Source: Thioclava electrotropha (GTDB lineage: Bacteria > Pseudomonadota > Alphaproteobacteria > Rhodobacterales > Rhodobacteraceae). Taken from it: 64,000 nt of DNA. The notes beneath the pieces are model-generated. The model ran no database searches. It saw only the letters and a program-made list of their open reading frames with translations, and was not told the DNA's origin. Made by a program: the position numbers and the translations under genes. Location of the stretch: NCBI RefSeq assembly GCF_002085925.2, contig NZ_CP053562.1, forward strand, positions 724,001 to 788,000, in the 5' to 3' direction. Below are positions 45,555 to 62,249 of this stretch, in pieces. How positions within the stretch are numbered: position 1 is the first letter of the stretch; each line of letters opens with the position of its first letter.

Positions 45555-45621
45555 CTGGGAATACTCCTGTCGGGTCCTTTCAGGCCAAGCGCGAGGGGCC
45601 GTCCCCTGCGCTTGGCCGGGT

Positions 45622-46764: not shown

Positions 46765-47540
46765 GCCACGCTCCCTTTAGAGAGCTTGCGCGCGTTGTCG
46801 ATCGAGCTGCGGGCGAAGCGCGCGTCGTCGGACGGGTTGTCATGCTCCATTACGAAATGGGCGGCCTTGCTGTCGCGGCGCAGGGCCTCGAGCAGCTGGG
46901 CCCAGTCCATGATGCCGGTGCCCACGTCGGCCCAGCCGTCCTCCTCGGCTTTCTCGCCTTCGGGGGCGATATCCTTCACATGCGCTGCCGTAATCCGGTT
47001 GCCATGCCGCGCGATCCAGTCGAGCGGGTCGGCCCCTCCGCGCGTGATCCAGGCGATATCGGCCTCCCAGTCGAGGTCGCCCGCAGCGAGGATATGCTCC
47101 ATCGGCAGCGTGCCGTCGGCGAGCGGCTTGAACTCGAAGTCGTGGTTGTGCCAGCCGAAGCCGAACCCGGCGGCGCGGATCGGGGCACCAGCGCGGGCGA
47201 GCCGAATGCCGAGCTCCTGCCAGCCTTTCGTATCGGTGGGCCGGTCATCGGGCATCAGGAAGGGCACGTAGAGCGCCTCCATCCCCAGCGCGCGCGCGAT
47301 TGCAATTGCACGGTCCGGGTCGGTCTCCACGACATCGAGGCTGAAATGTCCCGTCGGCATCTTCAGCCCGGCCGCGTCGAGCTGGGCGCGGAACGCATCT
47401 AGGTCAGACGTTCCGAGTTTTTCATAGAGCCCGCCGAACCCCTCGACGCTTGCATAGCCTGCCTGTGCCAGCATCCCGAGCGTCTGGTCGAGTGGACCCG
47501 CATTGCGCGAACTGTAAAGCTGGTAACTGAAATCGGTCAT
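46761..47540 (-). CDS. sugar isomerase/epimerase, AP-endonuclease-2 TIM-barrel family
   Basis: A 259-residue barrel protein that begins MTDFSYQLYSSRNAGPLDQT, with GWHNHDFEF, EADIAWITRGGADPL, AAHVKDIAPEG and VMEHDNPSDD giving the expected metal ligands. It is smaller than the other barrel enzyme of this operon and not closely similar to it. It begins the catabolic half of the operon just after the transporter genes, and its stop overlaps the next gene. Confidence 0.88.
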   Translation of the reverse strand: MTDFSYQLYSSRNAGPLDQTLGMLAQAGYASVEGFGGLYEKLGTSDLDAFRAQLDAAGLKMPTGHFSLDVVETDPDRAIAIARALGMEALYVPFLMPDDRPTDTKGWQELGIRLARAGAPIRAAGFGFGWHNHDFEFKPLADGTLPMEHILAAGDLDWEADIAWITRGGADPLDWIARHGNRITAAHVKDIAPEGEKAEEDGWADVGTGIMDWAQLLEALRRDSKAAHFVMEHDNPSDDARFARSSIDNARKLSKGSVA

Positions 47541-47574
47541 GTTTCTCTCCTCCTAGGAAAAATCAGGTGCGCAC

Positions 47575-48666
47575 CTAGAGGCGCTTTTCGCTTTGCGTGT
47601 CGAAGATCGACGCGCGCGTAATGTCGAAGGCGATGGGGACACGGTCACCGGGGCGGTAGCGTTTGCCGGAGGCGCAGCGCACCGAGAGCTTGGCCTCGCC
47701 ATAGGTCAGCCAGACGAGGCTGTCCGCGCCCATCGGCTCTTCCAGTTCTACGACGGCCTCGACCTCTCCCGGTTGGCCTGCCGCATCCCGGTCGAACAGC
47801 ACGTGTTCCGGGCGCACGCCAAGGATCACGTCGCGATTAACCGGCAGGGGGCCGTTGCCGTCATAGCCCGCGAGACCCGTGGCAAAGCCTTGCCCTTCGA
47901 AGATCGGGCCGTCTTGTCCGGCGACCAGACGCCCATCGAAGAAGTTCATGGCTGGTGACCCGATGAAGCCCGCAACGAACATGTTGCATGGTCGGTTGTA
48001 GATCGTGAGAGGCTCGTCGAGCTGCTGGATCTCGCCGCCATGCATCACCGCGATCCGGTCAGCCAGCGTGAGCGCCTCGATCTGATCGTGGGTGACGTAG
48101 ATCATCGTCGAGCGTAGCCGCTGGTGGAGCCGCTTGATCTCCACGCGAAGGTCGACGCGCAGCTTGGCGTCGAGGTTGGAAAGCGGCTCGTCGAACAGGA
48201 AGACATCCGCGTCGCGCACCAGCGCCCGACCGATCGCGACCCGCTGGCGCTGCCCGCCCGACAGGTTCGAGGGGCGACGCTTCAAAAGAGGCTCGATCTG
48301 CAGGATCTCGGCTGCGCGCGAGACGCGCTCCGCGATGTCCTTCTTGGAATGCCGCGCGACGCGCAGCCCGAAGCTTAGATTCCTCTCCACCGACATCTGC
48401 GGATAGAGCGCGTAGGATTGGAACACCATGCCGATCCCGCGATCCTTGGGTTCGTCCCATGTGACGTTCTTGCCCGAAATCCAGACCTCGCCGTCGGAGA
48501 TGTCGATCAGGCCTGCGATCGCGTTGAGAAGGGTGGACTTGCCACAGCCAGAGGGCCCCAGCAGCACGAGGAATTCCCCCGGCGTGATGTCCAGTTGCAG
48601 ATTGTCGATGACGTCCAGCGCGCCGTAGCTGATGCGCAGGTCGCGGACACTTACGGAAGGTTCCAT
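47575..48666 (-). CDS. sugar ABC transporter ATPase (UgpC/MsmK/MalK type)
   Basis: The ATP-binding subunit (363 residues) has Walker A GPSGCGKST, the signature LSGGQRQRVAIGRAL, Walker B DVFLFDEPLSNLD and the switch histidine in IYVTHDQ. A C-terminal TOBE regulatory domain with ILGVRPEHVLFD follows. It belongs to the CUT1 class and follows the two permease genes with four bases between. Confidence 0.95.
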   Translation of the reverse strand: MEPSVSVRDLRISYGALDVIDNLQLDITPGEFLVLLGPSGCGKSTLLNAIAGLIDISDGEVWISGKNVTWDEPKDRGIGMVFQSYALYPQMSVERNLSFGLRVARHSKKDIAERVSRAAEILQIEPLLKRRPSNLSGGQRQRVAIGRALVRDADVFLFDEPLSNLDAKLRVDLRVEIKRLHQRLRSTMIYVTHDQIEALTLADRIAVMHGGEIQQLDEPLTIYNRPCNMFVAGFIGSPAMNFFDGRLVAGQDGPIFEGQGFATGLAGYDGNGPLPVNRDVILGVRPEHVLFDRDAAGQPGEVEAVVELEEPMGADSLVWLTYGEAKLSVRCASGKRYRPGDRVPIAFDITRASIFDTQSEKRL

Positions 48667-48670
48667 TGCA

Positions 48671-49558
48671 TTATCCTTTCACGGCGCCGGCGGCGATGCC
48701 GCGGACGAACCAGCGGCCCGAGACGAAGTAGACGATCAGCGGCACCAGCGCCGTCAGGATCGTCGCGGCCATGTTGACGTTGTAGGCCTTGGTGCCGGTG
48801 GTTGTGTTGACGATGTTGTTGAGCTCGACGGTCATCGGCAGGTGATCGCGCCCGGCGAAGATCAGGCCGAAGAGGAAGTCGTTCCAGATGCCTGTGACCT
48901 GCAGGATCGCGGCGACGACGAGGATCGGACCGGACATCGGGATCATCAGTTGGAAGAAGATCGTCCAGAAGCCGCCCCCGTCGATCCGCGCAGCCTTAAA
49001 CAGGTCCACGGGCACGGCGACGTAGTAATTGCGAAACAGCAGCGTCATTACCGGCAGGCCGAAGATCACATGCACGGTGATGATGCCCGGCAGCGTGTTG
49101 TAGAGCGACACTTTCGAGAGCATCCGCACCAACGGGTAAAGGTAGACCTGGTAAGGAATGAACGCACCCAGCAGCAGCACCGCAAAGATCAGGTTGCCCC
49201 CGCGCGGGCGCCAGAATGACAGCGCGTAGCCGTTGATCGCGCCCAGCAGGATCGAGAGCGTCGCAGCCGGGATCATGATCTCGAAGGAGTTCAGCACACC
49301 CACCCGGATGCCCTCGCAGTTCACGCCCGTGCAGGCATGGGCCCAGGCCGTGGACCAGGGCTTGAGGGTGAAGTCCGTGGGCAGGCCGAAGATATTACCC
49401 TGCTGGATCTCGGGCATCGTTTTGAACGATGTCACGATCATCACGTAGAAGGGCAGCAGGAAGAACGCGGCTGCGAGCACGAGAAAGGCATAGATGCCGA
49501 TCCGGCTGGCGGTGAGCCGCCGGGGCTTGCGCCCGCGCGGTTGGGTCTCAGCGGTCAT
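48671..49558 (-). CDS. sugar ABC transporter permease (MalG type)
   Basis: A 295-residue inner-membrane protein with six membrane helices and the EAA-loop equivalent VPVDLFKAARIDGGGFWTIF that contacts the ATPase. I take the ATG at 49558, which overlaps the stop of the preceding permease gene (ATGA). Its C-terminus VSGRWFVRGIAAGAVKG is typical for MalG-type subunits. Confidence 0.94.
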   Translation of the reverse strand: MTAETQPRGRKPRRLTASRIGIYAFLVLAAAFFLLPFYVMIVTSFKTMPEIQQGNIFGLPTDFTLKPWSTAWAHACTGVNCEGIRVGVLNSFEIMIPAATLSILLGAINGYALSFWRPRGGNLIFAVLLLGAFIPYQVYLYPLVRMLSKVSLYNTLPGIITVHVIFGLPVMTLLFRNYYVAVPVDLFKAARIDGGGFWTIFFQLMIPMSGPILVVAAILQVTGIWNDFLFGLIFAGRDHLPMTVELNNIVNTTTGTKAYNVNMAATILTALVPLIVYFVSGRWFVRGIAAGAVKG

Positions 49559-50439
49559 GACGCCCTCCGGTCCTGGCGGAAATACTGGTTGTAGAGCCAC
49601 GGCCCCAGCACCACGAGCACGGCCACGAACATCACTGAGGCGGCCGCGGTCGCGAGCGCGATGTTCTGTCGGTTGAAGAGGTAATCGATGACGAATTTGG
49701 CGGGCACCTCCGTCGAGATGCCGGGACCGCCTCCGGTCATCGCGACCACGATGTCGTAGACTTTGACCACCGCGATCGCGAGCAGCACCACCGCGGTGAC
49801 GAACATGCTCGAGAGCATCGGGATCACAATCGAGAGGTAGACGCGCCACGGCGGGATGCCGTCGACACGGGCGGCCTTCCAGATGTCTTCATCCACGCCA
49901 CGCAAACCGGCCAGCAGGATCGCCATCACAAGACCCGCCGATTGCCACATGCCGGCAAATCCTACGAGATAGATCGCCCGGTCACCGCGTGACAGCCAGT
50001 CGAAGGTGAAGCCGTTCCAGCCCCAGTTCTGAACCGCCTGCTGGATGCCCAGCGTCGGGTTCAGAATCCAGGCCCAGACGAGGCCTGTGACGATGAAGGA
50101 CATCGCGTAGGGGTAGAGGAAGATCGTGCGGAAAATCCCTTCCCCCTTGATCCTCTGATCGAGGAACACCGCCATCAGGAAGCCTAGCACGAGACAGCCG
50201 ATGACGAAGATCAGGCCGAAGATCGCGAGGTTCTCGACTGAGATCGTCCAGCGGGAAGATTGGAATAGCCGGTCATATTGCTTGAATCCGACGAAGTCGT
50301 ATTTGGGCAGGATGCCGGAACTGGTGAAGGAGATGCGGATCGTCCAGAGGATCGTGCCGATATAGGCGAAGATGACGATGATCCATGTCGGGACGAGCGC
50401 AACTTGTGCGCTCAGGCGGCGCAGTCGAAGCGGCTTCAT
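49555..50439 (-). CDS. sugar ABC transporter permease (MalF type)
   Basis: A 294-residue membrane protein with the permease loop EDIWKAARVDGIPPWRVYLS and six predicted helices; the start MKPLRLRRLSAQVALVPTWI at 50439 is basic, as expected for the cytoplasmic end. Together with the MalG-type partner it forms the channel of the CUT1 transporter. About 105 bases separate it from the binding-protein gene upstream. Confidence 0.93.
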   Translation of the reverse strand: MKPLRLRRLSAQVALVPTWIIVIFAYIGTILWTIRISFTSSGILPKYDFVGFKQYDRLFQSSRWTISVENLAIFGLIFVIGCLVLGFLMAVFLDQRIKGEGIFRTIFLYPYAMSFIVTGLVWAWILNPTLGIQQAVQNWGWNGFTFDWLSRGDRAIYLVGFAGMWQSAGLVMAILLAGLRGVDEDIWKAARVDGIPPWRVYLSIVIPMLSSMFVTAVVLLAIAVVKVYDIVVAMTGGGPGISTEVPAKFVIDYLFNRQNIALATAAASVMFVAVLVVLGPWLYNQYFRQDRRAS

Positions 50440-50544
50440 GTCGTGATGTCCTGTCTCGTGACGGTCTCGGGAGAGGGCGCGCGCCCGGGGAGGCTGGGCG
50501 CGCCGGGGCCGCGACCCCAAGGGACGGATCGCGGCCCCGTCCGC

Positions 50545-51789
50545 TTAGCCGCCGATGATCTGGGCGAAGCGGTTCACGAAGTTCTCGGGCGTCTGGCTCT
50601 TGTCGGTGAAGAACGAAGCCACGAGATCGGTTATGGAGCCGCTCATGTCGGGCGAGATCAGGATGTCCGAACTGGGCACGTAGTCGCCCTTCTTGAGCAG
50701 CGCGAGCCCTTGCTGCGCGCATTGGTCCATATCCTGACTCGGCACGTCCTTGAGCACGGGCACCGCGCCTTTCTTCTCATTGAAGGCCAGCTGCACCTTG
50801 GGTTCGAGCAGCACCTTGGCAAGCAGGTCCTGTGCCTTGATCTCGGCCTTGTCGTTCAGCTTGGGGAAGACGAAGACATCGCCGCCGACCCAGTAGGTAT
50901 TGTGCCCCAGTGCCGGAATGCAGCCTACGTCCTTGCCGGGCACTTTGTTCTGGAGTTCCATCTCGCCCTTGGCCCAGTCGCCCATGAAGTTGAAGCCGGC
51001 CTTGTCGTTGATCACCAGCGCGGTCGCCTGATTCCACTGCCGACCCTGCATCCCGCTATCCACGTAGTCACGCAGTTTGCCGAACGTCTGAGCGACCTTG
51101 AGGAACTCCGGGGATTTCACCGCCGCGACGTCGCGATCCTTGAGCACCTTCATGTAAAGGTCCTTGCCACCCTCGCCGATCATGACGTTGAAGAACGTCA
51201 GGGCTTGCGTCCAGGCGCTGCCCGCCTGCGCGAGCGGGATCACGCCCTGCTTCTTGAGCGCGTCGAGATCGGTGAACAGGTCGTCCCAGGTCTTGGGTGG
51301 CTCGACGCCCGCTTTCTTCAGCAGTTCGGGCGAATACCAGAGCCAGATGTTGGAGTGGATATCGACCGGCACGGCATACATGTGCCCATCTTGGCTCACC
51401 GCGTTCAGCAGCACCGGGTTGATCTTGTCCTTCCAGCCATATTCCTTCGCCAGCGGATCTAGGTTGCGTAACAGCCCGTTCGAGACCAGCTCGTCGAACT
51501 GCTTGCCGGTGTTGAACTGCATGGCGGCAGGCGGATTGCCCCCGATGATGCGGTTGATCCCGTCGGCGCGCGCGGAATCTCCGCCGCCCCCGGCAACCGC
51601 GGCATCGACCCATTTGCCGCCCTGCGCGTCGAACGCCTTCTCGAATTCCTTGACCGCGGCATGTTCGCCGCCCGAGGTCCACCAGTGGATCACCTCTGCC
51701 TTTTCGGCCGCCTGCGCCTGTGCTGCGGCGAGACCGAGTGCCAGAGATGCGGCGATGCCGAGGGCGTGCCGTCCTTTATGAGCTTGCAT
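50545..51789 (-). CDS. sugar ABC transporter substrate-binding protein (glucose/mannose-type)
   Basis: The 414-residue periplasmic receptor begins with a signal peptide (MQAHKGRHALGIAASLALGL and AAAQAQA) and continues EVIHWWTSGGEHAAVKEFEK and AVAGGGGDSARADG, close to the glucose/mannose-binding GtsA type. GGGAGGAATTC precedes the ATG at 51789. It is the first gene of the operon, as usual, and its promoter carries two LacI-type operators. The exact sugar remains open. Confidence 0.92.
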   Translation of the reverse strand: MQAHKGRHALGIAASLALGLAAAQAQAAEKAEVIHWWTSGGEHAAVKEFEKAFDAQGGKWVDAAVAGGGGDSARADGINRIIGGNPPAAMQFNTGKQFDELVSNGLLRNLDPLAKEYGWKDKINPVLLNAVSQDGHMYAVPVDIHSNIWLWYSPELLKKAGVEPPKTWDDLFTDLDALKKQGVIPLAQAGSAWTQALTFFNVMIGEGGKDLYMKVLKDRDVAAVKSPEFLKVAQTFGKLRDYVDSGMQGRQWNQATALVINDKAGFNFMGDWAKGEMELQNKVPGKDVGCIPALGHNTYWVGGDVFVFPKLNDKAEIKAQDLLAKVLLEPKVQLAFNEKKGAVPVLKDVPSQDMDQCAQQGLALLKKGDYVPSSDILISPDMSGSITDLVASFFTDKSQTPENFVNRFAQIIGG

Positions 51790-51858
51790 GAATTCCTCCC
51801 AGAATTGATCGCGACTCCTCAATCGCGCGTCTCGACGTCATCCGGGATCTATCCCGTA

Positions 51859-51904
51859 TGCAATCGATTACATTTCACGCTAATCGCGCATGTAATCGAT
51901 TGCA
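51859..51904. promoter_or_regulatory. paired LacI-family operators
   Basis: TGCAATCGATTACA (51859-51872) and TGTAATCGATTGCA (51891-51904) are exact reverse complements and each is itself nearly palindromic around ATCGAT. Their centres are 32 bases apart, about three helix turns, so two dimers could bind one DNA face. They lie between the binding-protein gene and the divergent LacI gene, and both operons are probably controlled here. Confidence 0.8.
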
Positions 51905-51987
51905 ATCATGAAATTTCCGAGTAAATACAGGAGGTGTAGCGCTCTGCCACTGGTGAAGGCGGACCGGCAAGGCCTATAGAAAATGAA

Positions 51988-53064
51988 ATGAAAGGGACGA
52001 ATGTGAGCGGTGAGTCGGGTGAGGGCGGAATGGCGGGGGCAGGGGCGAGTGGTCCGCGCCACACGATGGCCGACGTGGCGCGCCGCGCCGGTGTCTCGAC
52101 CGCGACGGTGTCGCGTGCGCTCACCCGTCCCGACCAAGTCAGCCCCAAGACCCGCGAGCTGGTGCATGAGATCGCCGAGGAGCTCGGTTTCCGTCCCAAC
52201 CTGATCGGACGCCAACTGCGCGCCCAGGCGGCCAATTCGCTGTTGATCCTCGTGCAGGACCTTGAAAACCCGTTCTACGCCGAGCTGATCAAGGGCGCGG
52301 AATATGTCGCGCGTGAGCGTCAGTTTTCGGTGGTGGTGGGCGGAACGGATGGGCTCGAAGACGTCGAACGTCTCTACGCCGAGCAATATCTGGGGCGGCG
52401 CGTGGACGGCCTGATCCTGCTGACCGGCCATCTGCCCGCGGGTCTCTCGCGCAAAATGGCCGAGCAAGGTCCGGTCGTGCTGGTGTCAGAAGACAATCCC
52501 GAACTCGCGCTCTGCGCGGTGCTGGTAGACAATGTCGGCTGGGCCGCGCAGGCGGTGGCCCATCTTCATGCACTGGGACATCGCCGGATCGCGCATCTGT
52601 GCGGCCCGATGGCGCGGATCATCAGCCGCGAACGACGCGAGGGGTATCGGCGCGCCCTCTCGCAGGCAGGACTGCCAGCGGATCCCGCCCTCGAAGCGCC
52701 GGGGGATTTCAGCTTCGAGACCGGACGGCGCGCAACCCGCGCCCTGCTTGCCTTGCCGGATCCGCCAACCGCAATCTTCTGCGCCAATGACGAATCCGCC
52801 CTGGGTGCGATTCGTGCCGCACAGCAAGCCGGTCTGGACGTGCCGCGCGACCTCTCCGTCATCGGCTTCGATGACACGATGCTGGCCGAGATCTCCGACC
52901 CGCCGCTCACTACAATTCGCCAGCCGCGGCAGCAAATGGGAGCGGTCGCGGCCGAGATGGTGATCGACATGCTCGAAAACGGGCCGGGGCAGTGCGCCCG
53001 TCGGATCCTCGACTGCGAACTTGTCGAGCGCAGCACTGTTGCCGCCCCGGCCGCGAAAAGCTGA
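51988..53064 (+). CDS. LacI-family transcriptional regulator
   Basis: The helix-turn-helix TMADVARRAGVSTATVSRAL (about residues 26-45) and hinge helix precede a periplasmic-binding-protein-like sugar domain with FCANDESALGAI and SVIGFDDTMLAEISDPPLTT. The start is unsure: an ATG at 51988 gives 358 residues, while a GTG at 52003 has the better ribosome site (AAAGGG). It is divergent from the sugar ABC operon and very likely its repressor, released by the transported sugar or a product. Confidence 0.92.
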   Translation: MKGTNVSGESGEGGMAGAGASGPRHTMADVARRAGVSTATVSRALTRPDQVSPKTRELVHEIAEELGFRPNLIGRQLRAQAANSLLILVQDLENPFYAELIKGAEYVARERQFSVVVGGTDGLEDVERLYAEQYLGRRVDGLILLTGHLPAGLSRKMAEQGPVVLVSEDNPELALCAVLVDNVGWAAQAVAHLHALGHRRIAHLCGPMARIISRERREGYRRALSQAGLPADPALEAPGDFSFETGRRATRALLALPDPPTAIFCANDESALGAIRAAQQAGLDVPRDLSVIGFDDTMLAEISDPPLTTIRQPRQQMGAVAAEMVIDMLENGPGQCARRILDCELVERSTVAAPAAKS

Positions 53065-53580: not shown

Positions 53581-53911
53581 AGGGGGGCGGATCAAACGTT
53601 AACTTGTCTTCAATCGCGACTGGGCGAACCGCCGGTGGCTGGTCAGATTCACGAGATGAATCCCTCACAGGATTTGTTCAGCAGAGCCCCACCAATCGGC
53701 CCCCGCTTCGAACGGGCAAGTTTCCGGTGATCAGATCGGGTCTATTCCGCGCTTGCCGATGTTGTGGCGCGGCCTGAGCGCGCAATGCGGCTATCGAAGC
53801 GAACGCGAGCTCGAGGGGTGGCCTCGGTCCGACTTAGCAAGGCTTCTCCGCTGTGCCTTCTCGAGGGAGGGCACAGCGGTTTTCGTTTTCGGGGAGCGTC
53901 GCTTGTGGCGT
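53581..53911. other. intergenic region with a terminator
   Basis: No gene recognised in these 331 bases. They contain the hairpin at 53848-53879 and lie between the regulator remnant and the 3' end of the Gfo/Idh/MocA gene. Confidence 0.45.
53848..53879 (+). terminator. rho-independent terminator
   Basis: CCGCTGTGCC (53848-53857) pairs with GGCACAGCGG (53870-53879) over ten base pairs, followed on the plus strand by TTTTCGTTTTC. It would end rightward transcription before it runs antisense into the Gfo/Idh/MocA gene. Confidence 0.8.
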
Positions 53912-55045
53912 TCAGGCGTCTTGGCTCACGCGCTGCCAAGGCTGGTCGGCGAGGCGCACCACCTCACTGGTCTCGATCGAGCGCTGCACCGCTTGGCCGA
54001 TAGCGACGGCAGCCCAGCCATCTTCCAGCGTGACCTCAGGCGCGCTGCGTTCCCCGCGCACGAGGGCGATGAAGCCTACATGCTGGTGATAGGTGGACCC
54101 GTTGTGATCGCCCGCGGCGAGCAGTTCCTCGGGCACCGGCAGCTCGCGCTCCACCGGGCCTTTCGGATCGCGCGGCGAGATCACCAGTTTCGGCACCGGC
54201 GGCGCGCCCAGATGTGCGGGCCAGAACCGGGTCGGGCCGGGCACCAGCGCCTCGATCTTGCCATTGGGTCCGACGGCGGTGACCTCCTCCTGATAGCGCG
54301 CGCCCTCGGCATACATGCACAGCTCCAGCATCGCCCGCGCGCCGCTCTCGAATTCGACGATGGCGAAGCCCGCATCGAGGATATCAGGCGCGTCGGCCTC
54401 GGTGACGTGGTTCACCGGCGCAGGAGCCGAGGCCATGACGCGCACCGGCTCGGATTTCAGGGCGAGCCGCATCAGATCGAAGAAATGGCAGCATTTCTCG
54501 ACGAAGGTGCCGCCCGTGTAGCGGTTGAAGCGGTTCCAGTTGCCGACCTTGAACAGGAATGGGAAGCGGTGTTCGCGGACCATGAGCATGGTGATCCCGC
54601 CCGTCGCTGCCTCGGCCTCGTCGAGGAAGGCGGCGATCGGCGGCATGTAGCGATATTCCATCGCGACCCAAACCGGAGCGGGGTAGCTGTCGCGGAAGGC
54701 TTGCAGCCGCTCCGCATGGGTCGGATCGGTAAAAAGCGGCTTTTCCACGAGCACCGGCAGCGGGCGGGTCGATGCGATCTCTTCGAGCTGTTCGAGATGG
54801 CGGAAATTCGGGCTGGTGATGACGAGGCAGTCGAGCGCCTCCACCGCCAGAAGCTCCGCCACCGACCCCGCCATCTTCGCCCCGGGGGCGAGCGTCTGCG
54901 CGGCCTGCGCCATCTCCGCGTCGGGTTCGAAGATCGCCGCGACCTCCGCTCCGTCCAGCAGCGCAATATTGCGCAGGTGTTCCTGTCCCATCATGCCGCA
55001 GCCGATCATGCCGTAGCGAACGGGTCCCGTCTTGGTGACGCTCAT
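53912..55045 (-). CDS. Gfo/Idh/MocA-family oxidoreductase
   Basis: A 377-residue dehydrogenase with GMIGCGMMGQEHLRNIAL at the N-terminus, VLVEKPLFTDPTHAERL as the lysine loop, and FVEKCCHFFDLMRLAL in the substrate domain. It follows the GntR-UTRA gene by ten bases on the same strand and is divergent from the monooxygenase operon. In a sulfoquinovose or related sugar pathway it could oxidise or reduce the free sugar, but its substrate is unknown. Confidence 0.9.
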   Translation of the reverse strand: MSVTKTGPVRYGMIGCGMMGQEHLRNIALLDGAEVAAIFEPDAEMAQAAQTLAPGAKMAGSVAELLAVEALDCLVITSPNFRHLEQLEEIASTRPLPVLVEKPLFTDPTHAERLQAFRDSYPAPVWVAMEYRYMPPIAAFLDEAEAATGGITMLMVREHRFPFLFKVGNWNRFNRYTGGTFVEKCCHFFDLMRLALKSEPVRVMASAPAPVNHVTEADAPDILDAGFAIVEFESGARAMLELCMYAEGARYQEEVTAVGPNGKIEALVPGPTRFWPAHLGAPPVPKLVISPRDPKGPVERELPVPEELLAAGDHNGSTYHQHVGFIALVRGERSAPEVTLEDGWAAVAIGQAVQRSIETSEVVRLADQPWQRVSQDA

Positions 55046-55055
55046 CCGAGCCTCC

Positions 55056-55772
55056 TCATCTCATGCGTTGAACGTAATGTGCGCGGCTGGTGTCGAACCA
55101 TGTGCGCGAAAATTCGACCGGGGCAGGGCCGTCGGCCCAGCTGAAGCGCTCGATATAGCCAGCGGTCTCACCGGGGCGGCAGTCGAGCTCCGACGGCCCC
55201 CAGTCCGGCATCGGCGCGAAGCTGACCCGATCCTCGGCGCTCGCGATCCAGAAGCCGAGCGCGCGTTGGTAGTAGGCGTAAAGCGAGTCCTCGAGATCCT
55301 CGGCTTTCACCTCGCCTTTCGAGGCGTCGAGCCAGATTTCCTCCGCTGCGACCGGCGTCTCGTCGAGAAAGCGCAGGCGGCGCACCCGGCTCGCGCGCTT
55401 GGACGTGCCAAACTCCGGCAGGTCGGCGGGCTTGTCCATCACATCGACCGAGAGGATGCGGGCATTCGGAAATCCGCCTCCCGACAGGAGCTCGATCCGC
55501 AGCATGGAGTAGAAATGGTCGCGAAGGTTGCGGGTGCGGATGTAATTGCCCGAGCCCTGAACCCGCTCCAGTAGACCTTTCTCCTTCAGATCCTCCAGCG
55601 CGCGCCGCAAAGTGCCCACCGCGATCTTCAGCTGCGCGGCCATCGTCCGTTCGGGGGGGAGGCGCTCCCCGTCGGTCAGCCGGCCCGCCGCGATATCTCG
55701 AATCAGCACTTCGGAAACCTGCTTGTAGATCGGCAGTCCGGTGCGCTCTGACCCTTGATTTGCCTGTGTCAC
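55056..55772 (-). CDS. GntR-family regulator with UTRA domain (HutC subfamily)
   Basis: The 238-residue protein has a winged helix (IYKQVSEVLIRDIAAGRLTD, RLPPERTMAAQLKIAVGTLR) and a UTRA effector domain (RVRRLRFLDETPVAAEEIWL, ending EFSRTWFDTSRAHYVQRMR). It starts at a GTG at 55772; no better ATG is available. It probably controls both its own operon and the divergent monooxygenase-TRAP operon in response to the imported substrate. Confidence 0.9.
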   Translation of the reverse strand: MTQANQGSERTGLPIYKQVSEVLIRDIAAGRLTDGERLPPERTMAAQLKIAVGTLRRALEDLKEKGLLERVQGSGNYIRTRNLRDHFYSMLRIELLSGGGFPNARILSVDVMDKPADLPEFGTSKRASRVRRLRFLDETPVAAEEIWLDASKGEVKAEDLEDSLYAYYQRALGFWIASAEDRVSFAPMPDWGPSELDCRPGETAGYIERFSWADGPAPVEFSRTWFDTSRAHYVQRMR

Positions 55773-55799
55773 TTGGTCGCCCCAAAAATTGATACAGTA

Positions 55800-55813
55800 T
55801 TGATCTACATCAA
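55800..55813. promoter_or_regulatory. perfect FNR/FnrL-type box TTGAT-N4-ATCAA
   Basis: TTGATCTACATCAA matches the consensus of FNR-type oxygen regulators (FnrL in Rhodobacterales) at all ten fixed positions. It lies 28 bases beyond the GntR start and 52 before the monooxygenase ATG. A GntR site could use the same symmetry; a neighbouring partial repeat (ATTGATACAGT at 55788) would fit that. Confidence 0.55.
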
Positions 55814-55864
55814 GGCGGCTGCTAAGTGAAGGGAAATCGAACGGGAATCGCGAGGGAGGAACGC

Positions 55865-57019
55865 ATGACTGTTGTGCCGGTGAGATCGGGTGATCTCGAT
55901 GCCGCGGAGGTGTCCTGGTTTTCTGCCCTGTGTTCGGATGATTACCGCTATCTCGGCCAGCCCGAGGGCGATCTCCGCTCCAGCTGGGCGCATTGTTCCG
56001 ATATCGTGCGAGAGGCCGAGCGGCAGGGCTTCCGTAACATCCTGTGCCCGTCGAGCTATCAGGTGGGCCAAGACACGCTGAGCTTTGTGGCCGGCGCCAG
56101 CCAGATCACCAACCGGATGAATTTCCTCGCCGCCGTGCGCTGCGGGGAAATGCAACCGATCATGCTGGCGCGCACCATCGCGACGCTCGACCACATGCTC
56201 GAAGGCCGTCTGACGGTGAACATCATCTCGTCGGATTTCCCGGGCGAGAAGGAAGAGAGCGAATTCCGCTACCAGCGCTCGCGCGAGGTGGTGGAGATTC
56301 TCAAGCAGGCCTGGACCCAAGACGAGATCAATTACGAAGGTCAGGTCTACAATTTCAAAGGCCTCACGACCGACCCGGCGAAGCCCTATCAGCAGGGCGG
56401 CCCGCTTCTCTATTTCGGCGGCTATTCCCCGGCGGCGGTCGAGCTGTGCGCAGAGCATTGCGACGTCTACCTGATGTGGCCCGAGACGAAGGAAGAGCTG
56501 GAAGGCCGGATGAAGGTGGTCAACGAGGCCGCCGAGCGGCACGGGCGCGTTCTCGACTACGGGCTGCGAGTCCATGTGATCGTGCGCGACACCGAGGCCG
56601 AGGCGAAGGAATACGCGCAGGAACTTGTCTCGAAGCTCGATGACGAGGAAGGCCGGAAAATCCGCGAGCGGGCGCATGATGCGGGCTCGCTCGGCGTGTC
56701 GAAGCAGGCGCGCAACCGCGAGATCGCTGATGAGAGCGGCTATGTCGAGCCGAACCTCTGGACCGGGGTGGGGCGCGCGCGTTCGGGCTGCGGCGCGGCG
56801 CTGGTGGGCTCGGCCGATCAGGTGCTCTCGAAGCTCGAGGAATATCGCAAGATGGGCATTCGCGCCTTCATCCTGTCGGGCTATCCGCATATCGACGAGG
56901 CTCGCCAGTTCGGCCGTCTCGTGATGCCGCATCTCGACACGGTCTCGCTGCCCGAAATCTATGGTCGCGTCCCGATGGGGCCGCCGGCAACACCGCTCGC
57001 AGAAGGGGAACGCCGCTAA
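55865..57019 (+). CDS. FMNH2-dependent LLM-class monooxygenase, sulfoquinovose/alkanesulfonate monooxygenase-like
   Basis: A 384-residue bacterial-luciferase-like enzyme of the alkanesulfonate monooxygenase (SsuD) group: AEVSWFSALCSDDYRYLG, RLTVNIISSDFPGEKEESEF, GLRVHVIVRDTEAEA, and the conserved YVEPNLWTGVGRARSGCGAA. Such enzymes use reduced flavin and oxygen to split a C-S bond and release sulfite. The neighbours, an aldo/keto reductase and a flavin reductase, are the same trio as SmoC-SmoB-SmoA of the sulfoquinovose monooxygenase pathway, so sulfoquinovose is my preferred substrate. GGAGGAACGC precedes the ATG. Confidence 0.85.
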   Translation: MTVVPVRSGDLDAAEVSWFSALCSDDYRYLGQPEGDLRSSWAHCSDIVREAERQGFRNILCPSSYQVGQDTLSFVAGASQITNRMNFLAAVRCGEMQPIMLARTIATLDHMLEGRLTVNIISSDFPGEKEESEFRYQRSREVVEILKQAWTQDEINYEGQVYNFKGLTTDPAKPYQQGGPLLYFGGYSPAAVELCAEHCDVYLMWPETKEELEGRMKVVNEAAERHGRVLDYGLRVHVIVRDTEAEAKEYAQELVSKLDDEEGRKIRERAHDAGSLGVSKQARNREIADESGYVEPNLWTGVGRARSGCGAALVGSADQVLSKLEEYRKMGIRAFILSGYPHIDEARQFGRLVMPHLDTVSLPEIYGRVPMGPPATPLAEGERR

Positions 57020-57909
57020 TGGAGAAGATCGACCTTACCTCGGATGTCGCACTCAGCCGGATCGTCTATGGCATGTGGCGACTGGCCGACGATGCTGACA
57101 CCTCGCCCGCCCATGTCCGCGCCAAGATCGACGCCTGTCTGGAGCAGGGGATCACCACGTTCGATCATGCCGATATCTATGGCGGCTACACGGCTGAGGG
57201 GGTCTTCGGCGCGGCGATGCGCGAGGACCCGTCGCTGCGCGACCAGATGGAGATCGTCACGAAATGTGACATCATCGTCGCGGCGGGCCGTCATTCGCAT
57301 CGCAAGGTGAAGCATTACGACACCTCGCGCGCCCATATCGAAGCCTCGGTCGAGGCCTCGCTGCGGGAGCTGGCCACCGACCGGATCGACCTGCTGCTTA
57401 TCCACCGGCCCGATCCGCTGATGGACCATCACGAGACAGGGGCCACGCTCGATGATCTGGTCGCCTCGGGCAAGGTGCGCGCGGTGGGCGTATCGAACTT
57501 CCGCCCGTGGGACTGGGAGCTGCTGCAATCGGGGATGAAGACGCCGCTGGTGACCAACCAGATCGAGATCAGCCTTGGCTGTCTGCAGCCCTTCACCAAT
57601 GGCGATCTGGCCTTCCACCAGCGTCAGTCCCAGCCCGTGATGGCATGGTCGCCGCTGGGTGGCGGCGCGCTGATGACCGGCGAGGGGCCGGTGCAGGCGG
57701 TTCTCGATGAGATCGCGCAGACGCAGGGCGTGGATCGTGCGGCTGTCGCGACGGCCTTCCTGCTGGCGCATCCGGCGCGGATCATCCCGGTGATGGGGAC
57801 GAATAACCTTGAGCGGATCGCGAAGCTTTCCGATGCGCTCAAGGTTCGGATCGACAGGGAGACCTGGTTCCGCCTCTACGAGGCCGGGCTCGGTCAGGAG
57901 GTCCCATGA
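57019..57909 (+). CDS. aldo/keto reductase, SmoB-like
   Basis: The 296-residue (beta/alpha)8 reductase has the AKR tetrad in FDHADIYGGYTAEG (Asp, Tyr), VTKCDI (Lys) and LLIHRPDPL (His), and the cofactor segment near PVMGTNNLERI. In the sulfo-SMO pathway SmoB reduces 6-dehydro-D-glucose to glucose after desulfonation. The TAATG overlap with the monooxygenase gene and the flavin reductase downstream strongly couple these functions. Other AKR substrates are possible. Confidence 0.88.
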   Translation: MEKIDLTSDVALSRIVYGMWRLADDADTSPAHVRAKIDACLEQGITTFDHADIYGGYTAEGVFGAAMREDPSLRDQMEIVTKCDIIVAAGRHSHRKVKHYDTSRAHIEASVEASLRELATDRIDLLLIHRPDPLMDHHETGATLDDLVASGKVRAVGVSNFRPWDWELLQSGMKTPLVTNQIEISLGCLQPFTNGDLAFHQRQSQPVMAWSPLGGGALMTGEGPVQAVLDEIAQTQGVDRAAVATAFLLAHPARIIPVMGTNNLERIAKLSDALKVRIDRETWFRLYEAGLGQEVP

Positions 57910-58427
57910 TGAACGCAACCCGCCAGTTCACCCCGCGCACTTTCGTGCCGGGCCCAGAGAATACCCGCTTGCTGCGCGACGCCTTCGGGCGGTTTGCCAC
58001 GGGCATCACCATCGTGACCGCCGCCAGCGAGAACGGCCCTGTCGCGATCACGGCGAACAGTTTCTCTTCGGTCTCGCTCGATCCGCCGCTGGTGATCTGG
58101 GCCCCGGATCGCAACTCGCGCCGCTTCGTGCATTTCGAGAAGGCCGAGCATTACGCGATCCACGTGCTGGCCGCCGATCAGGACGATCTGTGTTTCGCGA
58201 CGACGAAGAACGCCCATGCGCTGCTCGATCACGCCTATCACCTCAACGATCATGGCGTGCCGCTGATCGACGGCTGTCTCGCGCGGTTCGAGTGTCATCG
58301 CGTCGCCTGCCACGAGGGCGGCGATCACCTGCTGGTGCTGGGTCAAGTCGAGCGCGCGGTGATGCGCGACGATGGTGACGCGCTGGCCTTCTACCGTGGG
58401 CAGGTGCGGCGGATCGAGATGAACTGA
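57906..58427 (+). CDS. flavin (FMN) reductase, SmoA-like
   Basis: The 173-residue split-barrel flavin reductase has LRDAFGRFATGITIVTA, ITANSFSSVSLDPPLVIW and a C-terminal FECHRVACHEGGDHLLVLGQ, which are hallmarks of the family that supplies FMNH2 to two-component monooxygenases. Its start overlaps the AKR stop, so it is the third gene of the coupled trio and the obvious partner of the LLM monooxygenase. Confidence 0.93.
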   Translation: MMNATRQFTPRTFVPGPENTRLLRDAFGRFATGITIVTAASENGPVAITANSFSSVSLDPPLVIWAPDRNSRRFVHFEKAEHYAIHVLAADQDDLCFATTKNAHALLDHAYHLNDHGVPLIDGCLARFECHRVACHEGGDHLLVLGQVERAVMRDDGDALAFYRGQVRRIEMN

Positions 58428-58509
58428 GGCGCTGACATATCCGGCCCGGACCGCGCAGGAGGAGCGCGGCGCCGGGGCTTCAAGGGATCGCGAGGGAGGA
58501 GACGCGCGC

Positions 58510-59097
58510 ATGACCCTGCTGACAATTCTGGCCAGGCCGCTGGTCCGGCTGAACGACATCCTGCTCGCCATCGGTCGGTGGGCGGGTGTTTTCGCCGTGG
58601 CGGCGATGGTCATCGCGATCCTGATCCAGATCTGGTTCCGCTATGTGCTCAACAGCGCGCTGCCCTGGCCCGATGAGGCGGCGCGGTTCTGCATGCTCTG
58701 GATGGCGGGTCTGATGGCGCCCTCGGCGTTTCGCTCGGGCGGCTTCGTGGCGATCGACATGCTGGCGGTGATGCTGCCGAAGCTGGTGGGGCGCGGGCTG
58801 ACGCTGGTGCTTTTGGTGTTCTCGCTGCTGGTCTCGGTCGCGGCACTGAAACTCGGCTGGGCCGGGATCACCGGCTTTGGCGGGAAATTCGCGACCGCCT
58901 CGCTCTGGGTGCCGGAAAATCTGGCCTTCGACGCTTGGATTCGCGTGCCGCGGAGCTGGATGATGGCCTCGCTCGTGGTGGGCTTCGCGCTTCTCGTGCT
59001 GGTCAATATCGAGCTGATCCTGCGCAATCTGCTCGCCTTCCGCACCGGGGACGATCCGCTGCCGCCGGTCTGGTCCGTCGCCGGAGGGGCCGAGTGA
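58510..59097 (+). CDS. dctQ: TRAP transporter small permease subunit (DctQ)
   Basis: A 195-residue four-helix protein with the DctQ segments IQIWFRYVLNSALPWPDEAARFC (first part within helix 1 and loop) and MAPSAFRSGGFVAIDMLAVM. It starts 82 bases after the flavin reductase, with GAGGGAGGAG upstream. It is the membrane partner of the DctM that follows with a one-base overlap. Confidence 0.93.
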   Translation: MTLLTILARPLVRLNDILLAIGRWAGVFAVAAMVIAILIQIWFRYVLNSALPWPDEAARFCMLWMAGLMAPSAFRSGGFVAIDMLAVMLPKLVGRGLTLVLLVFSLLVSVAALKLGWAGITGFGGKFATASLWVPENLAFDAWIRVPRSWMMASLVVGFALLVLVNIELILRNLLAFRTGDDPLPPVWSVAGGAE

Positions 59098-60386
59098 TGC
59101 TGGTCTGGTTCCTGCCCCTTTTCCTCGTCCTGATCCTGATCGGCTTCCCGATCTTCTTCGCGCTTCTGGCAGCGCCCGGCGCGATGCTGCTCCTGAACGG
59201 ACAAGAGCGCGATTTCGCGCTGCTTTACCGCAACCTTTACAACGGGATGGATAGCTTCCCGCTGCTCGCGATCCCGTTCTTCATGCTGGCGGGCGAGATG
59301 ATGAATTCGGGCGGCATCACGCGCCGTCTGGTGGAGTTCTCGGAAGCGATGATGGGCCATCTGCGCGGCGGGCTCGCGCATGTGAATGTCCTGTCCTCGA
59401 TGCTGTTCGCGGGGCTTTCGGGCTCGGCGGTGGCCGACACTTCGGCACTGGGTTCGATGCTGATCCCGGCGATGGAACAGCAGGGCTACACCCGCAAATT
59501 CGCCGCCGCCATCACCGCGGCCAGCTCGGTGATTGGCCCGATCATCCCGCCTTCGGGCATCATGATCATCTACGCCTATGTCATGGGCCAGTCGGTCGCG
59601 GCGCTGTTCCTCGCGGGGATCGTGCCAGGGGCGCTCGTCGGTATCGGGCTGATGCTGATGGTCAAGTTCATGGCCAACAAGCACGGGTTTCCCCCCGCCT
59701 CGAAGAAACACACCTGGCCCGAGCGCGGGCAGGCATCCTTGCGCGCGTTTTTCCCGCTGATGACGCCGGTGATCATTCTAGGCGGTATCTTGGGCGGTGT
59801 CTTCACGCCGACCGAGGCGGCGGCAATCGCCGTGGCCTATGCGCTGATCGTCGGTCTCTTCATCCTGCGCACGCTGCGCTGGGGCGACCTGCCGCATATC
59901 CTGATGCGGGCGGGGCTGACCTCTTCGGTGGTGCTTTTGCTGGTGGGCGCGGCGATGGCGTTCAAGACCGTCGTCAGCCTTGCGCACGCCCCCGAGGCGC
60001 TGGCGGAATTCATCCTCGGCCTGTCGCAGAACCCGCTGATCCTGCTGTTCCTGATCAATATCCTGCTGTTCATCGTGGGCATGTTCCTCGACGCGGGCCC
60101 CGCGATCATCGTGCTGGGACCGATCCTCGCGCCGATCTTCACCGGGCTCGGCGTCGATCCGATCCATTTCGCGATCATCATGAGCGTGAACCTGACCGTG
60201 GGCCTCGCGACGCCGCCGATGGGGTTGGTGCTGTTCGTCGCCGCCGCCGTCTCGAAAGAGCGGGTCGAGACCATCGCCCGCGCGATCCTGCCGTTCCTCG
60301 CGGTCGAAGTGGCCGTGATCTTCCTGATTACCTATTTTCCCGCGATTTCGATGACCATCCCCCGCCTGACGGGGTTCGCCAACTAA
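59097..60386 (+). CDS. dctM: TRAP transporter large permease subunit (DctM)
   Basis: The 429-residue transport subunit has DSFPLLAIPFFMLAGEMMNS, HLRGGLAHVNVLSSMLFAGL, VIGPIIPPSGIMIIYAYV and VNLTVGLATPPMGLVLFV, all typical of DctM. The start at 59097 overlaps the dctQ stop. It belongs to the monooxygenase operon and is clearly different in sequence from the DctM at 6925-8205. Confidence 0.95.
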   Translation: MLVWFLPLFLVLILIGFPIFFALLAAPGAMLLLNGQERDFALLYRNLYNGMDSFPLLAIPFFMLAGEMMNSGGITRRLVEFSEAMMGHLRGGLAHVNVLSSMLFAGLSGSAVADTSALGSMLIPAMEQQGYTRKFAAAITAASSVIGPIIPPSGIMIIYAYVMGQSVAALFLAGIVPGALVGIGLMLMVKFMANKHGFPPASKKHTWPERGQASLRAFFPLMTPVIILGGILGGVFTPTEAAAIAVAYALIVGLFILRTLRWGDLPHILMRAGLTSSVVLLLVGAAMAFKTVVSLAHAPEALAEFILGLSQNPLILLFLINILLFIVGMFLDAGPAIIVLGPILAPIFTGLGVDPIHFAIIMSVNLTVGLATPPMGLVLFVAAAVSKERVETIARAILPFLAVEVAVIFLITYFPAISMTIPRLTGFAN

Positions 60387-60416
60387 GACAAGACTGAAGC
60401 ATATAGGGAGGAAACG

Positions 60417-61487
60417 ATGCTCAGAACTTTTGTGAAATCGCTTGCGTTGGGGGCCGTGCTGGCCTCGGGGCTCGGCATGGCCGCGCAGGCTCAGGACGAT
60501 ACGATCACCCTGCGCGCGGTCGCCAACTCCAACACCAATGACGAGGATTACGACGGTCTCGTCGTGTTCAAGAACTATGTCGAGAATGCCTCGAACGGGA
60601 AGATCAAGGTCGACCTCTTCATCGGCACGCAGCTCTGCTCGAACGGGGCGGAGTGCCTGCAGGGCATCGCGGATGGCTCGCTCGATATCTACATCTCGAC
60701 CTCGGGCGGCGCCGCGGGGATCTTTCCTTACGTGCAGGTCCTCGACCTGCCGTATCTGATGCCGAACGACCGGGTGGCCGAGGAAGTGCTGACCCATACC
60801 GACTTCACCTCCGAGCTGCGCAAGATGGCGCTGGCGGATAGCGACGACATGATCCGCCTGATGAAGATCGGGAATACCGGCGGCTGGCGCAACTTCGCCA
60901 ACACCAAGAAGACGGTGAAGACGCCCGCAGATCTGAAGGGGATGAAGATCCGCACCATCGTCGCCGATCTGCCGCAAGAGTTGGTGAAGGCGATGGGTGC
61001 TTCGCCGACCCCGATCCCGTGGCCGGAGCTGTTCACCGCGATGCAGACCGGCGTTGTGGACGGCACCAAGAACGGCATCACCGACATCATGAACATGAAA
61101 TTCCCCGAGGCCGGGCTGAAGCATCTGACGCTCGACGGGCATGCCTACATGGCGGCGCTGTGGTGGATGAACAACCAAAAGTTCAAGGAGATGTCGCCCG
61201 ACATGCAGCGTGTGATCGTAGACGGGTTCGCCGCGCTCCAGCAGGCGACCTTCGCCTCGCCCAAGCGCAAGTCGATCGCCGCCTATGAGGAGTTCAAGAA
61301 GGACGGCGGCGAGATATACGTGCCGACGCCCGAGGAAAAGCAGCAGTTCCAGGACGCGGCGAAGCCGGTCTATGGCTGGTTCAAGGACAACGTCCAGAAC
61401 GGTGGCGAAGTATTCGATGACCTGCAATCAGCCGTCGATCAGGCATCGAAGACCGTCGATGCAGAGCGTGCGAACGAGCTGAACTGA
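60417..61487 (+). CDS. dctP: TRAP transporter substrate-binding protein (DctP)
   Basis: A 356-residue periplasmic receptor with signal peptide (MLRTFVKSLALGAVLASGLG, MAAQAQ) and the family segments GMKIRTIVADLPQELVKAMG and WPELFTAMQTGVVDGTKNGI. It has two extra cysteines (LCSNGAEC) that could form a disulfide. AGGGAGGAAACG precedes the ATG. It ends the operon before a clear terminator. By context its ligand is the substrate of the monooxygenase, for example sulfoquinovose or a related sulfonate; TRAP receptors bind acidic ligands, which fits. Confidence 0.93.
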   Translation: MLRTFVKSLALGAVLASGLGMAAQAQDDTITLRAVANSNTNDEDYDGLVVFKNYVENASNGKIKVDLFIGTQLCSNGAECLQGIADGSLDIYISTSGGAAGIFPYVQVLDLPYLMPNDRVAEEVLTHTDFTSELRKMALADSDDMIRLMKIGNTGGWRNFANTKKTVKTPADLKGMKIRTIVADLPQELVKAMGASPTPIPWPELFTAMQTGVVDGTKNGITDIMNMKFPEAGLKHLTLDGHAYMAALWWMNNQKFKEMSPDMQRVIVDGFAALQQATFASPKRKSIAAYEEFKKDGGEIYVPTPEEKQQFQDAAKPVYGWFKDNVQNGGEVFDDLQSAVDQASKTVDAERANELN

Positions 61488-61510
61488 GCCTTTGCTCCCG
61501 ATGAAGAGCG

Positions 61511-61534
61511 AACCCGCGCCTCGTGGCGCGGGTT
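61511..61534 (+). terminator. rho-independent terminator of the monooxygenase-TRAP operon
   Basis: AACCCGCGCC (61511-61520) and GGCGCGGGTT (61525-61534) form a ten-base-pair stem with a TCGT loop, followed by TGTCATTTTC. It lies 24 bases after the dctP stop. Confidence 0.85.
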
Positions 61535-61556
61535 TGTCATTTTCTAGGCTTAGGAT

Positions 61557-62090
61557 TCATAACCAGTAGATGACGAGAGCCGCCAGGGCGATGGCGGAGA
61601 GGAAGACCTTCGGAGATCGGTCATAGCGAGTCGCCACACGCCTCCAGTCTTTGAGACTGCCGAACATTATCTCAATCCGGTTACGGCGCTTGTAGCGGCG
61701 TTTGTCATATTTGATGGGCGTCTTGCGTTGCTTTCGGCCCGGGATGCAGGCGCGTATCCCCTTGTCCTGAAACGCGTCTCGGAACCAGTCGACCTTGGGT
61801 AGGCTGCTCAGCAGCGCCCGCGCACCGATGTAGTCGCCGACCTGCCCAGCGGTGACGAACAGGCTGAGCGGTCGCCCTTGGCTGTCGCAGATGGCATCCA
61901 GTTTGGTATTCCGTTTTCGGGCGAAACTGCCCCCCGGACAGTTTCTTTTTCCCTCAAACCCCTTGGTTCGCTCGATCAGGCGACCGCGCCCCCCTTTTTC
62001 GCGGCCAGGCTGGTCGCGGTGCGGTGTGCCTTCAGGTAGGTTGCGTCGATCATCACGGTCTTTTTCTCTCCGTTTTCGGAGCCGTGAATC
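61557..62090 (-). mobile_element. IS5-family transposase remnant, 5' truncated
   Basis: Read on the minus strand it contains KKTVMIDATYLKAHRTATSL, AICDSQGRPLSLFVTAGQVG, DYIGARALLSSLPKVDWF, IKYDKRRYKRRNRIEIMFGS and LKDWRRVATRYDR, ending LSAIALAALVIYWL. These are the DDE-domain segments of IS5-family transposases. The N-terminal part is missing beyond about 62090, and the usual dipeptide order GDRGYD is lost between KVDWF and FQDKGIRAC, so a segment was also deleted. It is inactive and separates two transport loci. Confidence 0.85.
61923..61945. repeat. palindromic element inside the IS5 remnant
   Basis: GAAACTG (61923-61929) and CAGTTTC (61939-61945) flank CCCCCCGGA; with one mismatch the arms extend to ten bases. 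The insertion lies between the transposase motifs LIERTKG and NTKLDAICD and adds about 48 bases in frame (peptide FEGKRNCPGGSFARKR). It shares the AAACWGTCC core with the element at 18519-18550. Confidence 0.65.
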
Positions 62091-62249
62091 ACGCGACGCA
62101 ACACAAATCGATGCATCCTGACCCTAGGCCTCGGTCGCGCTCGACCGGCAGCGCGCAACGAATGTCGGCTTCGTTCCATATCGCTTCGACCGAACGAAAA
62201 GACAAAAGCCGGGTGGCGCAAGACGCGCGCACCCGGCCAGGTTGGTCTC

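Follow-up and report, generated by a model that had tools for sequence, protein, structure and literature searches.

A predicted TRAP-fed sulfoquinovose monooxygenase operon with a GH188 sulfoquinovosidase in Thioclava electrotropha

A 64,000-nucleotide stretch of the Thioclava electrotropha genome (4.4 Mb in two contigs; contig NZ_CP053562.1, positions 724,001 to 788,000), hereafter called the window, contains an eight-gene locus in which genes for a sulfoquinovose (SQ) monooxygenase pathway (sulfo-SMO) adjoin genes for a tripartite ATP-independent periplasmic (TRAP) transporter. The locus as a whole is best explained as an operon, complete in itself and fed by this transporter, for the use of sulfolipid head groups by the sulfo-SMO route, and we put the probability of this explanation at about 0.8. 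It is also likely, with somewhat less assurance, that the TRAP family concerned, marked by C74/C80 and D240/W249 of its binding protein, is a general importer of SQ and/or sulfoquinovosyl glycerol (SQGro) in Alphaproteobacteria, and that it moves as a module between sulfolytic clusters, of the SMO type or, at a single locus, with TauD, and clusters of the sulfoglycolytic Embden-Meyerhof-Parnas (sulfo-EMP) type.

The locus consists of two divergent units, one on the minus strand with the GH188 and GntR-UTRA genes and one on the plus strand in the order smoC-smoB-smoA-dctQ-dctM-dctP (Table 1). All eight reading frames were open at the coordinates in the table, and the expected Pfam domains (GFO_IDH_MocA, GntR plus UTRA, Bac_luciferase, Aldo_ket_red, Flavin_Reduct, DctQ, DctM and DctP) each scored above the cut-off. 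By coordinates, smoC and smoB overlap by 1 base, smoB and smoA by 4 and dctQ and dctM by 1. The TRAP set is complete, since DctP, DctQ and DctM are all encoded according to their domain matches.

The luciferase-like monooxygenase (LLM) protein was 74.5% and 73.4% identical over 384 columns to 7olf and 7oh2, respectively, two structures that we take to be SmoC of the sulfo-SMO work. Its bit scores were 650-664 against the SmoC structures, compared with 204-213 against SsuD-type alkanesulfonate monooxygenases, 98 against dimethylsulfone monooxygenase and 42 against the nitrilotriacetate type; the sequence-only reading of this DNA had named a firm grouping with nitrilotriacetate or alkane monooxygenases as grounds against its proposal, and the scores show no such grouping. 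The start of smoC was corrected from GTG 55826 to ATG 55865, which has a GGAGGA box just 5', since the alignments to both SmoC structures begin only at residue 14 of the longer frame. The closest named proteins among the matches listed were SmoC proteins of Thioclava (90%). SmoC relatives at 47-54% identity were treated as a separate group and left out of the SmoC counts. On a plasmid of Spirosoma oryzicola (L120, 8986-13417), an LLM protein 52% identical to SmoC adjoins cytochrome c and SoxC genes behind SusCD and amidohydrolase genes, and this is perhaps another sulfonate desulfonation set.

The aldo/keto reductase was 63.9% identical to 7bby, deposited as an aryl-alcohol dehydrogenase and presumably SmoB, with 417 bits compared with 216 for the next solved relative. 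The flavin reductase of the sulfo-SMO set was present by domain and gene position. Judged by sequence, the three proteins constitute the sulfo-SMO enzyme set, with an LLM protein of the SmoC type. The earlier proposal of this trio with an adjoining dctQ-dctM-dctP set in place of an ATP-binding cassette (ABC) importer is thus upheld. In PMC13372026, genomes with SmoB and SmoC were counted as sulfo-SMO-positive. Elsewhere, the genome encodes a glucokinase and a protein carrying the Mo-co dimerisation domain known from enzymes of the SoxC/SorA type, which may therefore provide onward routes for glucose and sulfite.

The minus-strand Gfo/Idh/MocA protein scored 515 bits against 8zn9 (66% identity), 328.7 against ArSqgA 8qc3 (45%) and 327.1 against FlSqgA 8qc2. 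ArSqgA is one of the NAD+-dependent sulfoquinovosidases that founded GH188. All nine active-site and sulfonate residues aligned with the SqgA proteins (8QC2/8QC3/8QC6) were kept, namely K102, Y131, E158, R160, L164, K166, E183, H187 and H314. Among these, K102/Y131/E183/H187/H314 correspond to the catalytic Lys107/Tyr136/Glu189/His193/His321 of ArSqgA, and R160/L164/K166 to its sulfonate-binding Arg166/Leu170/Lys172; the residues for SQ chemistry and the sulfonate triad were assigned in PMC10755693, whose printed Glu163 is glutamate 164 in the alignment with R166 taken as fixed. The nine residues were conserved in 91 of 92 SMO-linked copies (one row was gapped at one site) and in all 24 EMP-linked copies. 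FlSqgA, ArSqgA and CrSqgA cleave SQ glycosides, and GH188 is near-universal in sulfo-SMO clusters of the Roseobacter clade (PMC10755693). By homology, the gene is therefore assigned to the GH188 sulfoquinovosidases, so that the locus would code for the use of SQ glycosides; the sequence-only reading had taken it for an extra enzyme outside the set, which does not hold. No signal sequence was seen by eye in the GH188 protein. Since the family also uses NAD+, import of the uncleaved glycoside is probable, and SQGro is accordingly the likelier cargo of the TRAP transporter.

In the proposed mechanism, periplasmic SQGro and/or SQ would be captured by DctP, whose R158, R179 and N219 would hold the sulfonate, and DctQM would import this cargo on an ion gradient. 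In the cytoplasm, the GH188 enzyme, whose active site is complete, would by homology cleave the glycoside to SQ and glycerol through a transient NAD+ oxidation at C3. SmoA would supply reduced flavin, and SmoC, as its 74% identity suggests, would cleave the C6-S bond oxidatively to give sulfite and 6-dehydroglucose. SmoB is predicted from its 64% identity to reduce 6-dehydroglucose to glucose, which the glucokinase could take over. Control of the divergent promoter may fall to the GntR-UTRA protein, acting at a conserved site.

To describe how common the layout is, two sets of smoC loci were used: the best 80 of 576 confirmed loci, which are biased to close relatives (named loci), and 50 loci of the family taken as about every third row among the matches listed, of 170 genomes (sampled loci). 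In a survey of gene order, as proposed by the sequence-only reading, the full eight-gene order was found in 57/80 named and 27/50 sampled loci. A TRAP set lay beside SmoC in 59/80 and 29/50 loci. The TRAP layout is thus ordinary for the clade and accounts for more than half of the loci in each set. The linkage itself stands, and the idea of a rare or unique TRAP variant is ruled out, this being the commonest layout sampled. SmoB was encoded beside smoC in all 80 named and in 46/50 sampled loci, and GH188 in 77/80 and 46/50. SmoC orthologs were counted in 165 of 395 sampled family genomes, a number from which misses are possible because the genome searches for SmoC and DctP scored the best 4-5 candidates per genome. 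The search threshold admitted 170 genomes, and the five weak matches (E 4e-61 to 3e-95), among them G231 with smoC in two frames, were scored negative. Examples annotated on plasmids or megaplasmids were found in Ruegeria sp. TM1040, Roseivivax sp. THAF197b and Paracoccus seriniphilus, and in Rhizobium sp. SL42 with another gene order. Within the genus of the window, SmoC was found in 4 of 16 genomes and TRAP in 3 of those 4.

Where TRAP was lacking, a gene for a sugar-binding protein of the ABC type was present in the fetched stretch of 11/19 named and 5/19 sampled loci, the sampled stretches being shorter than the named ones; the queries came from L057 and L072 and were classed by eye and by gene order. 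It is as if TRAP and ABC importers had replaced each other. A MalK-like gene (at least 40%) lay within 7 kb in 3/80 named and 4/50 sampled loci.

Orthologs of the window DctP, defined by E <= 1e-120, were found in 147 of the 395 family genomes, 114 of which also had SmoC (Fisher p 3e-29, with kinship ignored). Of 19 sampled genomes in which SmoC was present and no TRAP set adjoined it, none was among the 147 listed for DctP. The family is well set off: its weakest listed match was at 1.6e-148, and among 15 genomes of the same genus no match had an E value between 1e-233 and 1e-60, the limit used. Among the 33 DctP genomes without a SmoC ortholog at the counted level, 24 carried clusters of the sulfo-EMP type, 5 were of the SMO type and 4 were unexplained. 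The 24 clusters encode an SQ-isomerase-like protein (NCBIfam NF048012, 258 bits, below the cut-off of 700), a PfkB kinase, a LacD-like aldolase (except in L199) and GH188 (24/24), often with a mutarotase, an aldehyde dehydrogenase and a DeoR regulator. By homology, they represent a putative sulfo-EMP-type set. Such clusters, known from Arthrobacter AK01 and others (PMC10755693), share with the window GH188 and the substrate SQ, and in Rhodobacteraceae the TRAP set too; however, sulfo-EMP splits the carbon chain, whereas the SMO route splits the C-S bond. Four of the five SMO-type loci had no smoC match and one had smoC in two frames. TRAP and smoB and/or smoA are kept with no smoC match in L177, L195, L200 and L206, and the gap between the GntR gene and smoB in L206 is about 290 bases.

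The histories of the importer and the glycosidase were compared by trees. The careful DctP tree of 58 rows, for which 26 of 94 SMO rows were kept (<82% mutual identity), contained 12 changes between SMO and EMP, at least 7 of them on strongly supported branches. When the EMP-linked DctPs were constrained to one clade, the approximately unbiased (AU) test gave p 0.0033, and they formed one group in 0/200 bootstrap trees, although the bootstrap had not settled; these results reject a single origin of the EMP-linked DctP. A quick DctP tree of 126 rows gave 11 changes when the four unexplained loci were given no pathway label and 13 when they were counted as SMO. In contrast, the GH188 tree of 117 rows contained exactly 1 change, with EMP-linked and SMO-linked copies in two separate groups. 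It therefore appears that the binding protein moves between pathways and the glycosidase stays.

In a sample of the class, a DctP of at least 67% identity was found in 11 of 387 genomes, the window's own genome included, and six of these lay outside the family. Two of the six had a full sulfo-EMP cluster with TRAP (L230, L231), and in two others the coordinates placed TRAP no more than about 5 kb from smoC (G595, G641). DctPs at 52-53% identity occurred in EMP-type clusters with GH31 (L236) or GH188 (L250). In L248, from another class of the phylum, a DctP of 64-65% identity is encoded after SmoB, with GntR and GH188 opposite and a TauD-family dioxygenase near, and no smoC was found in the fetched stretch. 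A sulfo-SDO (SQ dioxygenase) route with an iron/alpha-ketoglutarate SQ dioxygenase has been described (PMC12890257), and the TauD protein of L248 is probably such an enzyme. Because the DctP family is common to SMO loci, sulfo-EMP-type clusters and one dioxygenase-type locus, its substrate is probably a molecule that the routes share, that is, SQ or its glycoside.

In the DctP alignment, R158, R179, W202 and N219 were present in 126/126 rows. The anion-binding Arg/Arg/Asn set is thus present as R158, R179 and N219, and the equivalent residues hold the sulfonate in the isethionate-binding TRAP protein IseP (8t9t/8te9, PMC11668362), which shows 22-23% identity to the window DctP over the aligned part and binds a small substrate. 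Besides this set, C74/C80 and D240/W249 are invariant marks of the window DctP family; in an alignment that held SiaP and 4p47 and was made without IseP, C74/C80, D240 and W249 were found in neither of these two. No position had differing majority residues (each >80%) in the SMO and EMP groups. The predicted fold was that of a general TRAP P protein, with many rows nearly tied in the fold comparison.

Several observations weigh against the explanation as a TRAP-fed SQ operon or against the wider role of the importer family. The flavin reductase SmoA resembles solved proteins weakly, its closest solved relative being 4xhy at 138 bits. No TRAP set was adjacent at 19/50 sampled smoC loci, and the genome G014 of the same genus has the enzymes and no such DctP at E <= 1e-60; these cases indicate that TRAP is not essential to the pathway, and together with the 4/16 count that the locus is patchy within the genus and the importer dispensable in places. 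The DctP loci L188, L197, L201 and L208 lack recognised SQ desulfonation or sulfo-EMP genes. In the remaining two of the six genomes outside the family, TRAP lies on another contig than smoC, with no recognised SQ genes alongside it. Ten loci with DctPs of 37-50% identity showed no complete known SQ set, with TauD relatives (33-36%) in L251 and L253 and kinase- and aldolase-like genes in L240 and L241. DctM showed fewer swaps than DctP, namely 4 (111 rows, with 18/24 EMP loci). In addition, TRAP proteins in general, SiaP and 4p47 among them, carry the Arg/Arg/Asn set, so that it does not by itself select a sulfonate. As for the four unexplained loci, L188 retains GH188 and GntR, all four have a MauG-like gene, and a PhyH-type protein is encoded by the TRAP genes in L197 and L208; they are possibly further SQ routes. 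A MauG-like di-heme cytochrome gene also occurred in the fetched stretch of 52/135 SMO loci and 21/24 EMP loci, and no MauG-like frame was seen alongside the TRAP genes of the window.

One alternative is that the enzymes act on SQ and the TRAP transporter is a mere neighbour whose cargo is some other acid, for example a uronate or one of the short sulfonates dihydroxypropanesulfonate (DHPS) and sulfolactate. TRAP proteins mostly carry carboxylates, the related solved proteins 7bbr and 7bco bind sugar acids, a TRAP transporter has been proposed for sulfolactate (PMC10507020) and uronate-type genes lie elsewhere in the window; the smoC loci without TRAP and the two genomes that keep the two apart fit as well. 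However, the same DctP family accompanies the SQ genes of two pathways that are unrelated and has swapped between them repeatedly, and this well-separated family is listed for 0/19 of the sampled SmoC-positive genomes in which smoC has no TRAP beside it, so that a neighbour of this kind is unlikely. Less probable still, and by a wide step, is that the locus handles free SQ or another sulfonate only, with the Gfo/Idh/MocA protein acting as a sugar dehydrogenase. Pfam and NCBIfam do call the protein Gfo/Idh/MocA or inositol-dehydrogenase-like, and a search of the entire genome gave no GH31 domain (the control was positive in 6/14 genomes), which agrees with the absence of GH31 from the window noted by the sequence-only reading; its step from there to the possible import of free SQ fails, since by homology a GH188 is present. 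The dehydrogenase role is rejected on the GH188 identity and the nine residues kept, across relatives as well, and the three SqgA enzymes named above cleave SQ glycosides (PMC10755693). Finally, a role of the LLM protein in sulfur scavenging, as a general monooxygenase of alkanesulfonates or methanesulfonate, suggested by the best NCBIfam model (alkanesulfonate monooxygenase) and by the depositors' names of the 7olf/7oh2 pair (methanesulfonate sulfonatase and alkanesulfonate monooxygenase), is scarcely credible and is rejected on a model score of 264.7 below the cut-off of 518.2, the 73-74% identity to SmoC and the conserved SmoB and GH188 neighbours.

The sulfo-SMO system of Agrobacterium, reportedly described by Sharma and colleagues in 2022, is said to comprise SmoA-SmoI with an ABC importer, a GH31 enzyme and a LacI-type regulator. 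It resembles the window in SmoC, SmoB, the flavin reductase and the oxidative C-S cleavage to glucose, whereas the window has TRAP, GH188 and GntR in place of the other three. An Agrobacterium-type arrangement with SmoEFGH and the GH31 enzyme SmoI was not found at the locus, where TRAP genes follow smoA. The window belongs instead with the Roseobacter-clade sulfo-SMO clusters, which have the same enzyme set and GH188, and for which the available part of the text of PMC10755693 names no importer.

The enzyme set and GH188 were already known, and the possibly new part is the evidence for a single TRAP family shared by SQ pathways of different chemistry, best read as an importer of SQ or SQGro. 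Among the literature matches listed, no paper linked a TRAP transporter to SQ, and Liu 2023 or the figures of PMC10755693 may already show or name the TRAP genes. Yearly production of SQ amounts to about 10 billion tons (PMC10755693). It is turned over by marine bacteria, in which the gene set described here is common, and its transport is little described in the parts of the literature consulted. If the proposed role is correct, no earlier TRAP system for a sulfosugar would precede this one, and the family would mark SQ use in genomes whatever the pathway, flagging such use where downstream enzymes are incomplete or unrecognised, as in four family genomes. If one family feeds pathways that free sulfite and pathways that leave three-carbon sulfonates, uptake and fate would become separable in metagenomes.

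A homolog of the GntR regulator was encoded at 80/80 named loci. A site like TTGATACNGTATCAA (<=4 mismatches) occurred upstream of smoC in 90/119 loci compared with 28/1190 random windows from the same loci; because the search pattern was taken from the window's own sequence, these counts speak for conservation and not for function. The hairpin at the lower edge of the locus was called on the plus strand and not on the minus strand; it would therefore stop incoming transcription, and the end of the GH188 transcript was not assigned to it. The terminator scan of the region gave 12 such sites compared with a shuffle mean of 4.8.

Table 1. Features of the sulfo-SMO locus in window coordinates, with assignments predicted from the evidence in the last column.
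Feature	Position	Strand	Basis
Terminator-like hairpin, lower edge, pointing to the locus	53848..53879	+	14-pair stem, then TTTTCGTTTT
GH188 NAD+-dependent sulfoquinovosidase, SqgA-like	53912..55045	-	homology to 8zn9, 8qc3, 8qc2
GntR/UTRA-family regulator, divergent from smoC	55056..55772	-	domains
Candidate operator TTGATACAGTATTGA, between the GntR gene and smoC	55789..55803		match with <=1 mismatch nowhere else in the window
smoC, FMNH2-dependent SQ monooxygenase, LLM family	55865..57019	+	identity to 7olf, 7oh2
smoB, aldo/keto reductase, 6-dehydroglucose to glucose	57019..57909	+	identity to 7bby
smoA, flavin reductase	57906..58427	+	Flavin_Reduct domain
dctQ, TRAP small permease	58510..59097	+	PF04290
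dctM, TRAP large permease	59097..60386	+	TIGR00786, 436.9 bits
dctP, TRAP substrate-binding protein	60417..61487	+	DctP domain; family tied to SQ clusters
Terminator-like hairpin with T-run, 3' of dctP	61508..61537	+	13-pair stem

Immediately past the dctP terminator, a remnant of an IS5-like transposase was read by eye on the minus strand (window 61560-62110). Elsewhere in the window, positions 43339-53064 carry a sugar ABC importer (47-52 kb), two IolE-like genes, two Gfo/Idh/MocA genes and a LacI regulator, which is probably another glycoside route. Genes like those for fructuronate reductase, mannonate dehydratase and galactarate dehydratase stand in a row at 10072-14211. A 1704-residue protein encoded at 24625-29739 has RecQ-type helicase and UvrD-type parts, and the PADLOC models DpdF (378 bits) and GajB match these two parts.

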